DNA of 42,675 nt from Gemmatimonadota bacterium (GTDB lineage Bacteria; Gemmatimonadota; Gemmatimonadetes; Longimicrobiales; Gaopeijiaceae), in NCBI GenBank assembly GCA_022826005.1, contig JAJDVT010000076.1, positions 1-42,675 on the forward strand, written 5' to 3'. This document shows positions 24,549 to 29,814 of the stretch, piece after piece (the stretch's first letter is position 1; every line of letters starts with the position of its first letter). The notes under the pieces were generated by a model. That model was not told where the DNA came from and did not search any database. It was given only the letters and a program-made list of their open reading frames with translations. A program made the position numbers and the translations under genes.

Positions 24549-26603
24549 CTAAAGATACGGCCAGAGTCGCGGATCCAACGAGAGGATCACCTCCGGCGAG
24601 CCGCCCGGGACGCCCCATGCGCCATCGAGCCGCAGAAGATCGTGAAACAGCGCAACCCCCGCGCCCAGGTAGCCGCGCGGCCCCGGCGACCGCCCCACCC
24701 CCCAGCCCCGGGCCAGGGAGTCCGGCGTGCTCCCCACCGCCCCCACCCCCCCGAGCAGGCGCCCCGTCACCCACCCGGGCACGACCTGGAAGGCCGTCTC
24801 CCCGCGGGCCAGCACGAACCGGCTTCCGCCCCAGGCGCGGTAAGGGTGGCCCGGCAGTGTCCCCCGTCCCCCCAGCAGGAAGAGCAACTGCGGCGGCGTC
24901 CGGCCCCACGCGGCTCCGGCCTCGAGCGAAACCCTGGCGTGGCGGGTCAGGTCCGCGGATGCGGTCCGGCCCTCCAGACGCGCGGTCAGCGACGCGTTCC
25001 CCCTTCCCTCCCACCGCCCCGCCGTCCCGGCGACCGCCGCCTCCGCGCTCCAGTCTCCCAGCCCGCCCCACCGCCGCACCACCGCGGCCCGGGCCCGTGC
25101 GTACACCCCCTCCTCCGGGGCGTTCAGCGCGCGCAGGAGCGCTTCCGAACCCCACCCGGCCGTCCACGCCTCCGCGGCCCCCGAATGTTCCTCGAGCGCG
25201 CCACCGATCTCGATACCGGCCGACTCCCCGAGCCGCCGTTCCAGCCCCACCCGCACCCCGGTCGCGAAGTGGGGATCACTGTAGTCCAGGTTGCGAAAGA
25301 GGGTCGACAGCGTGTTCACGGCGCTCGATGCTCCTGGGCGAGGGCCCGAGTCACGCAACTCCCTGGCGTACAGTTCCAGGGTGGTGGTCGCGGAGGACCC
25401 GGGGAGCGACCAGCGGCCGCGCACGGTCGCATCGGCGGTGCGGCTTCCGGTCGCGAGACCCGCCCTGCCGTCCAGTTTCAGCGTCGGCCGGGGCGAGTAG
25501 GACGCACCGAGCCCCACCCGGACCCCCTCGGCGCGGTTCGCCCTGAGCAGCGAGGAGAAGCGGTCGGTGTAGAAGCGCAGCCGGGGCAGTCCGCTTACCA
25601 CCTGCTCGCGTGCCACCCGCCGCGCTTCCTCGTGGATTCGCTCAAGGCTGACCGGAGAGAGTCCCTCGTCGGCCATCCGGTCCATCAGTCCCACCTCGAA
25701 CAGCGTCGAGTCCGCTATCCCGTAGGGGACCACGGTCACGGGGGGGCCGCGGAAGCGCCACGCGGGCAGGTCCGGGTCGAATTCGTAGTCGGTCACCCGC
25801 AGGGTCGCCCGGATGACCGAACCAACCGGGAGATCGAACTCGGGCATCTCTCGCCGCACCTCCACCACCTGCCGATGAGGGAGATAGTGGCCGCTCTCCC
25901 ACCTGCGGTGCTCGAGCCGCACCGTGATCCTGTCGACCCTCGGGTCCACGTAGGAGGCGGGCGTGAAGCTGAAGCTCATGCTCACCAGGGCGCCGGTCGC
26001 CGCGTCCAGGAATACGCTGCCCACGAAGGCGGGCCGGTCCCCCCGTCGGGGCTGCACCTCGACCTCGTGGACGCGAATCGGCACGTCGAAGCCCTGCGGG
26101 CTGATGCTGACCGAGTCCACGAGCCGGTAGCGATAGTACGACTCCCCGTCGCTGCCGAGCGGGTGGGGGACATCGCTGACGTCCAGCCCCTCCCCGATCT
26201 CGATGAAGTCCCCGAATCCGTTCTGTACCGCGGTCAGGCGGTCGATGTAGTAGTGGAATTCGCGGATCGGCAGCAGGTGTTTCTTCCGTAGTCCGCGGAC
26301 GTCCTGGCGCCGCCGGCCCTCGGAGTTCTGATAGAGGTCGACCACCACCTGATCGACCCGCATCGGGATCGGCTCGCCCCCGTCGTCGCGGTCGAGGAAG
26401 AAGTAGACGTGTCCTTCGGCCGAGGCCCTGTAGGCGGGGAAGGGGTTCTCGGATGGCGGGAGACGCCGGTAGTCGCGCGCCATCCGCACCAGGGCGAGAG
26501 TGGCGGGCTCGTCGAACTCCTGAGCCCGGGCCGTACCCGCACCCGCAAAAAGGGCGCAGAAGGGGATGAAAAGTGTAGCGGCGGCCCGGCGGCGCCGGGT
26601 CAG
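24549..26603 (-). CDS. Predicted outer-membrane beta-barrel protein of DUF5686-like style
   Basis: About 680 residues. A signal peptide is clear (RRRRAAATLFIPFCALF to ARAQEF). The N-terminal half has strands such as HYYIDRLTAVQNGFGDFIEIGEG and VRVHEVEVQPRRGD; the C-terminal half is barrel-like with alternating residues and repeated GRGxL, GLGAS and GRAGL turns. It ends PRLWPYL. No ATG, GTG or TTG lies in frame between the GTG at 26828, inside the bL28 gene, and the signal peptide. The CTG at 26603 (TGA overlap with the rpmB stop, CTGA) is the natural candidate. Translation is thus probably coupled to rpmB. Family by resemblance only. Confidence 0.75.
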   Translation of the reverse strand: MTRRRRAAATLFIPFCALFAGAGTARAQEFDEPATLALVRMARDYRRLPPSENPFPAYRASAEGHVYFFLDRDDGGEPIPMRVDQVVVDLYQNSEGRRRQDVRGLRKKHLLPIREFHYYIDRLTAVQNGFGDFIEIGEGLDVSDVPHPLGSDGESYYRYRLVDSVSISPQGFDVPIRVHEVEVQPRRGDRPAFVGSVFLDAATGALVSMSFSFTPASYVDPRVDRITVRLEHRRWESGHYLPHRQVVEVRREMPEFDLPVGSVIRATLRVTDYEFDPDLPAWRFRGPPVTVVPYGIADSTLFEVGLMDRMADEGLSPVSLERIHEEARRVAREQVVSGLPRLRFYTDRFSSLLRANRAEGVRVGLGASYSPRPTLKLDGRAGLATGSRTADATVRGRWSLPGSSATTTLELYARELRDSGPRPGASSAVNTLSTLFRNLDYSDPHFATGVRVGLERRLGESAGIEIGGALEEHSGAAEAWTAGWGSEALLRALNAPEEGVYARARAAVVRRWGGLGDWSAEAAVAGTAGRWEGRGNASLTARLEGRTASADLTRHARVSLEAGAAWGRTPPQLLFLLGGRGTLPGHPYRAWGGSRFVLARGETAFQVVPGWVTGRLLGGVGAVGSTPDSLARGWGVGRSPGPRGYLGAGVALFHDLLRLDGAWGVPGGSPEVILSLDPRLWPYL

Positions 26604-26839
26604 GTCACGTCGCTCAGCGAAAGCCCGTTTTTCCGCAGGAATGCCCGCAACCCCATCTTGTCGATCGACCGCAGGGCGGAAGTGGACACCTTGATCCGGA
26701 TCGACTTGCCCAGTTCCGGGACGAAGATGCGCTTCGTCTGCAGGTTCGGCAGCTGCCGCTTCTTGGTCTTGTTGTGAGCGTGGGAGACGTTGTACCCGGT
26801 CAGGGGCCGCTTCCCCGTGATGTCGCACTTGCGGGACAT
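26600..26839 (-). CDS. rpmB: Ribosomal protein bL28, form without zinc-binding cysteines
   Basis: 79 residues, full length: MSRKCDITGKRPLTGYNVSH at the N-terminus, then NKTKKRQLPNLQTKRI and STSALRSIDKMGL. A large-subunit protein. It has a single Cys, so it lacks the four-cysteine zinc site of C-plus bL28 and resembles the E. coli form. It follows rpmG by three bases on the same strand. Its stop overlaps the candidate CTG start of the outer-membrane barrel gene. Confidence 0.97.
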   Translation of the reverse strand: MSRKCDITGKRPLTGYNVSHAHNKTKKRQLPNLQTKRIFVPELGKSIRIKVSTSALRSIDKMGLRAFLRKNGLSLSDVT

Positions 26840-26842
26840 CGG

Positions 26843-27013
26843 TTACTTCTCCTCCTTGAAGAGGACGTGCCGGCGCAGGACCGGGTCGTACCGCCTGAGC
26901 TCGAGGCGCTGGGGATGATTCCGCTTGTTCTTCGTGGTGGTGAAGCGGTAGGGACTCTCGGTACTGGACATCTTGATGGTCACGCGGGGACCCTTGCCCG
27001 ACTTCTTCGCCAT
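26843..27013 (-). CDS. rpmG: Ribosomal protein bL33, form without zinc-binding cysteines
   Basis: 56 residues ([18 protein letters not shown], then [20 protein letters not shown] and [17 protein letters not shown]). The [20 protein letters not shown] core is diagnostic of bL33. It has no cysteine, so it is the C-minus, zinc-free form like E. coli bL33. It lies three bases upstream of rpmB in one operon. It is shorter than 60 residues and easily overlooked. The ATG at 27013 is the only sensible start. Confidence 0.96.
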
Positions 27014-27225
27014 GACTCTCCTCGGTTCTGCTTTGCCCCGCCGGCCTCCGCCGGCCCTCCGGCCGGACGCACGCCCCGGGACGGACGCAACAAGATAAGA
27101 TAGCCCGTTGACCGCGAACGTCCAGATGGAATAGGATTAGTGCTCCCTGTCACGATCCCTGTCGACCACCGCTCCAGGCTGCGCGCGGCGATTCCGGCGG
27201 GGTGTTAGAACCCGGAACCCGGCAA
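27014..27225. other. Divergent spacer between rpmG and the bL31B gene
   Basis: The spacer holds both promoters. Around 27041-27064 a GC-rich run CCGGCC-CCGCCGGCC-GGCCGG can fold into alternative hairpins. I looked for an AT-rich Zur-type palindrome and found none. The stretch AAGATAAGATAG at about 27091-27102 is the most AT-rich and could be a -10 region. Confidence 0.35.
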
Positions 27226-27477
27226 GTGAAGAAAGACATTCACCCGAAATACAGGCCCGTCGTCTTTCAGGACGTCTCCACAGGCTACGCCTTCCTGACA
27301 CGCTCCACGATAGAGACCAAGCGCACCACCCAGTGGGAGGACGGCAAGGAGTACCCCCTCGTCACCCTCGAGATCTCCTCCTCATCCCACCCCTTCTACA
27401 CGGGAACACAGCGCCTGCTGGACAGCGCGGGCCGGGTCGAGCGCTTCCAGCGCCGCTACGGTCTTCAGCGCGATTGA
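27226..27477 (+). CDS. rpmE2: Ribosomal protein bL31, type B (no zinc ribbon)
   Basis: 83 residues. [20 protein letters not shown] and [12 protein letters not shown] with [11 protein letters not shown] are typical of the type B (YkgM-like) L31, which lacks the CxxC pair that binds zinc in type A. The GTG at 27226 is chosen because the family starts MKKDIHP; a GTG at 27202 would add eight residues. In many bacteria type B L31 replaces type A under zinc shortage. It is divergent from rpmG and convergent with folE2, 23 bases from its stop. Confidence 0.95.
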
Positions 27478-27500
27478 CGGCGAGCCGCCTGCTGCGGCCG

Positions 27501-28301
27501 CTACCTCTCGGTCGGCTCTTCCACCTGCGCGTAGGCGTCGTGCTCGTGGATCGACTCGAAGTTCACCACGTGCACCTTGAACCAGGTGACCAACGGCATT
27601 GAGCGCAGCCGCAGCGTGACCTCCCGCACCAGATCCTCCACGAAGCGGGGATTGTCGTAGGCCCGCTCGGTGACCCACTTCTCGTCGGAGCGCTTCAGCA
27701 CCGGGTAGAGGTCGCAGGACGCGGACTCGTCCACCAGTGCGACCAGCTCCTCGATCCAGAGTTCCCCCGTGAAACGGGCCCGCACGGTGACCATGCTGCG
27801 CTGGTTGTGGGCCCCCCGGGCGCTGATCTCGCGCGAGCAGGGGCAGAGCGTCGTGACGGGGACCTTCACCGTGAGCACGAAGTCGTCCTCCGCCCCGCTC
27901 GACGCGTCGAAGGCGCAGTCGTAGGAGAGCAGCCCCTCCGAGCCGGTGACGGGAGCCTCCTTGGCCATGAAGTACGGGAAGGTGATGCGCAGGTGAGCCG
28001 TCTCGGCGGACAGGCGTTCGCGCATCGTGCGCAGGATCGCGGGAAGCGCCCCCACCGAGATTACCCCGTCGTGGGAGTTGAGGATCTCCATGAAGCGGCT
28101 CATGTGAGTCCCCTTGAAGTGGTGGGGCAGGTCCACCGACATGTCGATCGTGCCGACGGTGTGCTGCGCGTCCTTCTGCCGGTCCTTCACCGCGATGGGG
28201 AAGCGGATGTTCTTGACGCCCACGCGGCTGATCGGGACCCTGCGTCCGTCCGGGTTGGCCTGTACGTCCGCGAGGGGTGGTGTCTCGACGGTTTCGATCA
28301 T
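27501..28301 (-). CDS. folE2: GTP cyclohydrolase IB (FolE2)
   Basis: 266 residues, full-length FolE2. It makes 7,8-dihydroneopterin triphosphate from GTP, the first step to folate and other pterins. Seen: ISRVGVKNIRFPI, TIDMSVDLPHHFKGTHMSRF, AHLRITFPYF, VPVTTLCPCSREIS (Cys153 and Cys155) and GAHNQRSM (His165), which fit the conserved metal and catalytic region, and DNPRFVEDLVREV. FolE2 is the alternative enzyme that works without zinc, with other divalent metals, and in several bacteria is induced on zinc depletion. The ATG at 28301 overlaps the stop of the MazG-like gene as ATGA, so translation is coupled. Confidence 0.97.
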   Translation of the reverse strand: MIETVETPPLADVQANPDGRRVPISRVGVKNIRFPIAVKDRQKDAQHTVGTIDMSVDLPHHFKGTHMSRFMEILNSHDGVISVGALPAILRTMRERLSAETAHLRITFPYFMAKEAPVTGSEGLLSYDCAFDASSGAEDDFVLTVKVPVTTLCPCSREISARGAHNQRSMVTVRARFTGELWIEELVALVDESASCDLYPVLKRSDEKWVTERAYDNPRFVEDLVREVTLRLRSMPLVTWFKVHVVNFESIHEHDAYAQVEEPTER

Positions 28302-28669
28302 CGTTCTTCCGGTTCGCCGGGTGCTTCCGGCTCGGCCAGGCGTCTCGTGTCTATTCGACGCATCTTTTCCTCCACGGCGCGCGCCAGGTCGATTCCGCGG
28401 CTGTTCGCGTAGTTGAGCAGGGCGATGCAGACATCGGCGGATTCGTCCTCGAAGTCGTCCGCCGCCACCTGCCGTCCCTTCCAGACCTTCTTCTCCAGGT
28501 TCGCAAGCTCGCCGGTTTCGCCGGCGAGTTCCAGTGCGAAGAACCTGGGCGGGCGCTCGGGGAAGGCGGCCTCCTGGTAGCGATGGAATTCGTCCTGAAG
28601 CTTCCGAAGGCCGTCGTAGGAATCCGGCAGCAGCTTGTCGGCGGGATCGGGTTGTATATCGTGGGGCAT
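28298..28669 (-). CDS. MazG-like nucleotide pyrophosphohydrolase
   Basis: 123 residues, an all-alpha NTP pyrophosphohydrolase. The metal site is complete: Glu51-x-x-Glu54 in GETGEL and Glu76-x-x-Asp79 in DESADV, separated by LEKKVWKGRQ. It hydrolyses a nucleoside triphosphate or analogue to monophosphate and pyrophosphate. The ATG at 28669 is chosen; the frame runs open to 28801 without protein-like content. It is divergent from mogA, 130 bases between starts, and overlaps folE2 by four bases (ATGA). That coupling suggests action on dihydroneopterin triphosphate, the FolE2 product, whose pyrophosphate-removing enzyme is missing or unknown in many bacteria. House-cleaning of non-canonical nucleotides is the alternative. 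Confidence 0.85.
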   Translation of the reverse strand: MPHDIQPDPADKLLPDSYDGLRKLQDEFHRYQEAAFPERPPRFFALELAGETGELANLEKKVWKGRQVAADDFEDESADVCIALLNYANSRGIDLARAVEEKMRRIDTRRLAEPEAPGEPEER

Positions 28670-28799
28670 GGTGGGTGCGCTGGGGGTTGCGGTTGGCGGG
28701 CCGGTGTTGCGGGCCTTGCATGCGCCTGGCCGGGGTGCCGCCTGTGTCTCGAAACCGGGCCCAGTGGAAAAATGCCGGAAAGCGCCCATATTGTCGAAC

Positions 28800-29354
28800 A
28801 TGGCCTATTCCAGGAGAGACTCATCCACCGGGCCGGTGCGCGTCGGCATCGTGTCGGTGTCGGACCGTGCGTACCGCGGAATCTACGAGGACCGCGGCGG
28901 GCCGGCGGTGCGCGCGTACCTGGAGGAGGTGCTGTCGACGCCGTGGGAGGGGGTCGCGCGGGTGATCCCCGACGAGGTGGCCGTGATTCGGGACACGCTG
29001 GTCGAGCTCGCGGACGAAGCCGGGTGCTGTCTGGTGATCACGACGGGAGGGACCGGGCCTGCGCCCCGTGACGTGACCCCCGAGGCGACGGCCGCCGTGC
29101 TGGACAAGGAGCTGCCCGGGTTCGGGGAGGCGATGCGGGCCGTGTCGCGTCCCCACGTGCCTACCGCCGTCCTGTCGCGCCAGACGGCGGGGGTGCGGGG
29201 ATCGGCGCTGATCGTGAACCTGCCGGGCTCGCCCAAGGCGGTGCGCGAGTGCCTGGACGCCGTGTTCGCGGCCGTGCCGGACTGTGTGGACCTGATCGGG
29301 GGGCCGTATCTGGAGACGGATCCGTCGCGAGTGGCGGCGCACCGGCCGCACTGA
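28800..29354 (+). CDS. mogA: Molybdopterin adenylyltransferase MogA/MoaB-type
   Basis: 184 residues, MoCF-biosynthesis fold. Seen: VRVGIVSVSDRAYRGIYED, CCLVITTGGTGPAPRDVTPE (the nucleotide/molybdopterin binding loop), VRGSALIVNLPGSPKAVREC. It adenylylates molybdopterin before molybdenum insertion. The ATG at 28800 (MAYSRRD) is chosen; open frame to 28635 is not protein-like. It is divergent from mazG-folE2. MogA and MoaB cannot be separated with certainty from sequence; APRDVTPEAT is MogA-like. Confidence 0.9.
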   Translation: MAYSRRDSSTGPVRVGIVSVSDRAYRGIYEDRGGPAVRAYLEEVLSTPWEGVARVIPDEVAVIRDTLVELADEAGCCLVITTGGTGPAPRDVTPEATAAVLDKELPGFGEAMRAVSRPHVPTAVLSRQTAGVRGSALIVNLPGSPKAVRECLDAVFAAVPDCVDLIGGPYLETDPSRVAAHRPH

Positions 29355-29397
29355 AGGCGTCCGCATGTGGCACTCCCGACAGGTGATATTGACTCCT

Positions 29398-29415
29398 GCT
29401 CGCAGTTCCGCGAGC
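29398..29415 (+). terminator. Short hairpin between mogA and rpsN
   Basis: GCTCGC at 29398-29403 pairs with GCGAGC at 29410-29415, loop AGTTCC. It lies 44 bases after the mogA stop. No T tract follows (ATTAAAGG), so it is a weak candidate and could instead sit in the rpsN leader. Confidence 0.35.
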
Positions 29416-29508
29416 ATTAAAGGCTGGGCGGCCCCCTAACGAGCCGCCGGTTGCCGGTTCCTGCCAAGGTCCCTGCACAGCCGACGACAACCTGCGAAGA
29501 ATCACGGA

Positions 29509-29814
29509 ATGGCGAAGAAGGGCAAACTCCAGAAGAATGAGCGGCGAGCCCGCCTGATCGAAAAGTACGCCGAGACGCGCGCCCAGCTCAGGAGCGTCAT
29601 GAAGGATCCCGACGCCACGCTCGACGAGAAGCGCGAGGCGATGGCCAGGCTCCAGGCGCTTCCCCGCGATTCCGCCGCGGTTCGGTACCGCAACCGCTGT
29701 CAGATGACGGGCCGCCCCCGCGGGTTCATCCGCAAGTTCGGCATCTCCAGGATCGCGCTTCGCGAAATGTCGCTGCACGGGCTGATCCCGGGAGTGCGCA
29801 AGTCCTCCTGGTAG
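29509..29814 (+). CDS. rpsN: Ribosomal protein uS14, long form without zinc ribbon
   Basis: 101 residues: [20 protein letters not shown], then [20 protein letters not shown] and [19 protein letters not shown]. The long form with [12 protein letters not shown] has a single Cys, so it is the C-minus, E. coli-type uS14 that needs no zinc, as opposed to the short CxxC form. It is apart from the S10 or spc operons. Clear ATG start. It precedes the nitronate monooxygenase-like gene with its stop 74 bases from the next conventional start. Confidence 0.97.

Follow-up and report, generated by a model that had tools for sequence, protein, structure and literature searches.

Among described all-alpha NTP pyrophosphatases, dCTP pyrophosphatase 1 (DCTPP1, or RS21-C6) has the same fold and EXXE...EXXD site as the MazG-like protein analyzed here, is its best Foldseek match, and is matched at the profile level with an E value of about 2e-6. 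The two proteins differ in that they are ~30% identical, the loop between helices is shorter in the MazG-like protein, and the latter has an extra invariant E47, a RFFALELAGETGELANLEKK block, and coupling of its gene to folE2. Bacillus YpjD and Bacillus MazG (2gta and 5ie9) carry the same metal motif and give the highest VIA-align Z scores (9.6 and 9.5), but identity is 26-30%, and a second, standard MazG encoded by the same genome looks closer to that type. Cyanophage S-2L MazZ (7ody), a purine-dNTP pyrophosphohydrolase that is paired with a biosynthetic enzyme, also has a MazG-like fold, but its sequence match is weak (E 0.1) and its partner is another one. FolQ/NudB is similar in its reaction, which is the one proposed here (triphosphate to monophosphate plus PPi), and the gene studied here adjoins a GTP cyclohydrolase gene; in contrast to the MazG fold found here, however, FolQ/NudB proteins are Nudix proteins, and the folate pathway was not found in this genome. 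Most bacteria have no known gene for the removal of pyrophosphate from dihydroneopterin triphosphate (PMC1971073), and our literature search found no paper that mentions MazG together with either dihydroneopterin triphosphate or folE2.

The window (the whole stretch of DNA analyzed, 42,675 nucleotides) is contig 45 of a 4.85-Mb Gemmatimonadota assembly (143 contigs, 96.8% complete). It contains a MazG-like gene and folE2 as a coupled pair (Table 1), and the ATGA overlap between them, which a first-pass annotation of this DNA had reported, is confirmed in the sequence. The purine-rich GGAAGA just 5' of the folE2 ATG may be folE2's own ribosome site, and the true start of the divergent mogA gene may lie a few bases upstream of the listed one, at a conserved ATG.

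Table 1. Features of the MazG-folE2 locus (positions within the window).
Feature	Position	Strand	Evidence
MazG-like all-alpha NTP pyrophosphohydrolase gene (predicted), first of coupled pair	28298..28669	-	123 aa; translation; PF03819, 19.7 bits; AF2 model; orthologues
folE2, GTP cyclohydrolase IB (zinc-independent type), CPCS motif	27501..28301	-	266 aa; PF02649, 317.8 bits (cut-off 25); NCBIfam FolE2 model NF010200, 288.6 bits (cut-off 215)
ATGA overlap of the MazG stop with the folE2 start	28298..28301	-	sequence; RTGA overlap in 20/21 family genomes
Conserved divergent promoter block (putative) between mogA and the pair, CCATGTTCGACAATATGG ... GGCATTTTTCCAC	28764..28803	.	alignment of 20 intergenic regions
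mogA (molybdopterin adenylyltransferase), divergent neighbor	28803..29354	+	NF006932, 261.8 bits; position shared by most Gemmatimonadota loci
rpmE2, type B (cysteine-free) ribosomal protein L31, convergent neighbor	27202..27477	+	NF002462, 137.3 bits; conserved position
rpmG, cysteine-free L33	26843..27013	-	ORF sequence; conserved position
rpmB, L28 without zinc-ribbon cysteine pairs	26600..26839	-	PF00830; conserved position
rpsN, S14 without zinc-ribbon cysteine pairs	29509..29814	+	NF006477, 133.5 bits; conserved position in most loci

The metal site that the first-pass annotation had described as complete (E51xxE54/E76xxD79) is present, and its four residues do not vary among 20 close orthologues or among 44 relatives drawn from several phyla; E47, N57, E59, K60, W63, N86, N89, and K102 are also invariant in the 44 relatives. 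The only Pfam match of the protein, PF03819, scores below the cut-off of 22 bits, so the family call rests on fold and relatives, 38 of the 44 relatives matching PF03819 at E values up to 0.1 (best 1.6e-6). An AlphaFold2 model built from these 44 relatives (mean pLDDT 90.8) has a MazG/dCTPP1-type fold and most closely resembles dCTP pyrophosphatase, YpjD, iMazG, and HisE-type proteins (Foldseek probability 1.00 to dCTPase; rmsd 1.9 with 83 aligned for YpjD). The predicted membership of the protein in the MazG / all-alpha NTP pyrophosphatase superfamily is weak by Pfam and firm by fold. The protein does not show a Nudix (FolQ/NudB family) fold: the sole Pfam match is MazG, and the model has a MazG fold. 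The standard MazG (L161:6374-6712, contig 14) was the only other MazG-like match of the search in the window's genome (G000); a QueE gene lies close by (both genes within L161:3846-6712).

In a phylum sample of 298 genomes, FolE2 is encoded by 35 and a strong orthologue of the MazG-like gene by 21; these 21 coincide exactly with the FolE2-encoding members of the window's family (18 from one genus and three others). In all 21, the MazG-like gene immediately precedes folE2 on the same strand, and an ATGA or GTGA overlap recurs in 20 of these genomes, which places the overlap beyond chance. In the lone pair without an overlap (L055, G234), the MazG TAG stop precedes the folE2 start. Both MazG and FolE2 are absent from a congener without FolE2 (G174) and from the FolE1 members of genus g4. 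A broader scan of an 84,980-species collection showed that Tectomicrobia and Nitrospinota also carry the pair, with a gap in place of the overlap and metH downstream. The pairing that the first-pass annotation had seen in a single genome is thus conserved in relatives, both within the family and in these two phyla. Its contexts vary: the pair is divergent to mogA, precedes metH in Nitrospinota and Tectomicrobia, and, in another genus, lies directly behind queE (G162 contig 11, L192:7124-9085).

In a phylogenetic tree, 35 of 35 folE2-linked MazG proteins form one branch (support 100/99), and 16 homologues (47-57% identity) that are found beside unrelated genes, and not next to folE genes, fall outside it. 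This single shared origin of the linkage means that its occurrences are not many independent events. Pairwise dN/dS values are 0.14-0.33 for MazG and 0.05-0.16 for FolE2. As judged from these sequence comparisons, the MazG-folE2 pair is old, has been retained through context changes, and is under purifying selection. The genomes closest to that of the window are Gemmatimonadota/Longimicrobiales metagenome genomes; as far as can be judged from record names, several of them, including members of the window's genus, come from sponge studies.

Comparison of the MazG-like protein with phage and plasmid records gave no match. Viral contigs L119-L121 contain queC-queD-queE-FolE1, a phage 7-deazaguanine cassette, with a distant MazG relative directly after it. 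With 38-47% identity and three contigs only, this viral FolE1-MazG neighborhood is a lead and no proof.

A natural comparison case is provided by a MazG deletion in the sister family f7, in which eight genomes (loci L017, L018, L020-L024, and L026) have FolE2 proteins that branch inside the clade of the window's family (99/93), a nesting that suggests transfer between families. All eight lack MazG, and in the f7 loci examined folE2 adjoins mogA; alignment with MazG-bearing relatives shows a scar in which the promoter region and then the leader and first codons of MazG run directly into the MazG-folE2 junction, with ~350 bases gone. Because MazG is deleted and the f7 FolE2 genomes gave no FolE1 match, FolE2 works without MazG in this family.

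The window's genome gave no match to FolB, FolK, or FolP, using searches that do detect these enzymes in relatives and control genomes (FolB was searched in the window's genome only). FolK was absent, and FolP gave no match above cut-off, in G017 and G058 (one contig each), G053, G059, G070, G161, and G162; FolK is found in none of the MazG-containing family genomes tested, and within the family MazG tracks FolE2. A complete folate pathway had been inferred for Gemmatimonadota across environments in a published survey (PMC10581226); the lack of detectable FolK and FolP in genus g1 (G000, G017, G058, and others) differs from that inference. The genome was also searched for a NudB homologue, a check that the first-pass annotation had suggested, and none was found (best 27.3 bits versus a cut-off of 103); its four Nudix proteins are NudC-, MutT1-, NudE-, and CoA-pyrophosphatase-like, none of them near the NudB cut-off. 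One FolK-containing relative (G034) has a PTPS-FolK-FolP folate operon whose PTPS contains CExxHGH, the motif of PTPS-I/III hybrids, which serve folate as well as queuosine synthesis (PMC5041015). Since a PTPS-I/III type enzyme needs no pyrophosphatase, this relative would bypass that step. In Nitrospinota and Tectomicrobia, FolK is present in 8/10 and FolP in 5/5 genomes tested.

FolE1 is present in 261 of the 298 genomes; within the window's genus, genomes with FolE2 lack it, apart from one weaker case (G058). In a FolE1 relative (G086, L158:5328-7787), the gene order is PTPS, FolE1, SDR, Trm112-like; in the window's genome (contig 62, L154:3845-7619) and in G017 it is PTPS, SDR, Trm112-like with FolE1 gone, and in G058 it is PTPS, SDR. 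FolE1 is thus part of the PTPS-SDR operon in the relative, whereas FolE2 genomes have this operon without it, so FolE2 probably supplies a biopterin-type (or queuosine) route in which the triphosphate is used as such. The PTPS of the window's genome has the sequence CANPNWHGH, and CxxxxxHGH is the motif of biopterin-type PTPS-II (PMC5041015); QueE is encoded as well. One genome with the pair (G161) has no PTPS-family match, and no biopterin-dependent aromatic hydroxylase (PF00351) was found in the FolE2 genomes tested. PTPS and QueD both take the intact triphosphate, so they would face competition from a dihydroneopterin triphosphate hydrolase translated together with FolE2.

Our preferred reading, which we hold tentatively and put somewhat short of an even chance, is that the MazG-like protein is a FolE2-partner NTP pyrophosphohydrolase at the GTP/dihydroneopterin-triphosphate node, and not for folate here. 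The predicted MazG/dCTPP1-type enzyme would cut a nucleoside-triphosphate-like substrate to a monophosphate and pyrophosphate; as a long-standing translational partner of FolE2 it would most likely have a triphosphate of the FolE2 node as its substrate, candidates being dihydroneopterin triphosphate and GTP-derived intermediates or side products, with a role in trimming or salvage. In this organism FolE2 has taken the place of an ancestral FolE1, which in this reading fed a PTPS/sepiapterin-reductase-like pterin route, and perhaps QueE, rather than folate. This reading is favored by the presence of MazG and FolE2 together and adjacent in all 21 family genomes and by the lack of both in FolE1 relatives. 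Counting against it are the expected competition with PTPS and QueD, the f7 genomes that keep FolE2 after the MazG deletion, the 47-57% identical homologues away from folE genes, and the activity of the nearest solved relatives on dCTP and other nucleotides. A rival reading is that of a general house-cleaning NTP pyrophosphohydrolase (acting on dCTP, dUTP, or damaged nucleotides), with folE2 only sharing its transcript. In favor of this role, the solved structures nearest to the protein are those of mouse/human dCTP pyrophosphatase and Bacillus YpjD, homologues in other phyla lie beside unrelated genes, and f7 lost the gene without losing FolE2. We consider this role about as likely as that of a FolE2 partner, but the genome already has a standard MazG, and the pair persists in several gene contexts and three phyla while MazG is absent from FolE1 relatives.

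The first-pass annotation had put the protein forward as a candidate for the missing pyrophosphatase that acts on dihydroneopterin triphosphate in the folate pathway of this organism. Its recognition of a FolE2-coupled pyrophosphohydrolase-like gene stands, and that gene is conserved and selected; the folate role here does not, as the genome lacks detectable FolB, FolK, and FolP. The coupling to FolE2, the lack of a NudB-type protein, and the missing gene assignment for this step in most bacteria are in its favor, but FolK and FolP proper were not found even in single-contig congeners and all MazG-containing family genomes tested lack FolK. Gene content therefore nearly excludes this role, and we regard it as very improbable. 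An improbable reading, though one less remote, is that the clade provides folate synthesis in Nitrospinota and Tectomicrobia with a non-Nudix pyrophosphatase for dihydroneopterin triphosphate and was inherited by or transferred to Gemmatimonadota, where it would serve another pterin product. The MazG-folE2-metH order, the presence of FolK and FolP, and the single clade shared with the Gemmatimonadota proteins are consistent with it; however, it leaves retention in folate-less Gemmatimonadota unexplained on its own, and the survey of folate genes in those two phyla covered FolK and FolP. More broadly, the MazG-fold clade, previously undescribed, could be a non-Nudix pyrophosphohydrolase whose substrate is dihydroneopterin triphosphate or a close triphosphate derived from FolE2, serving folate in Nitrospinota/Tectomicrobia and a non-folate pterin in Gemmatimonadota symbionts, a proposal that we consider possible but rather unlikely. 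Inherited together with a GTP cyclohydrolase gene in three phyla, the MazG-like gene offers a concrete candidate, cheap to test, for an enzyme at the dihydroneopterin triphosphate node.

The neighborhood of the pair was not used in the first-pass annotation. In the alignment of intergenic regions, the segment between mogA and the pair contains a strongly conserved CCATGTTCGACAATATGG followed by GGCATTTTTNCAC, a block that we read as putative overlapping divergent promoters. This block occurs once in the window and is thus not a box common to the ribosomal genes there; no Zur box of the ATGTTATAACAT type was found in the window. The four ribosomal proteins encoded around the pair (L28, L33, L31B, and S14; 26600-29814) all lack zinc-ribbon cysteine pairs. 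Because these four forms lack such pairs and FolE2 is zinc-independent, the cluster of four ribosomal genes, FolE2, and mogA looks like a zinc-sparing set. The order of these genes is kept in most Gemmatimonadota loci.
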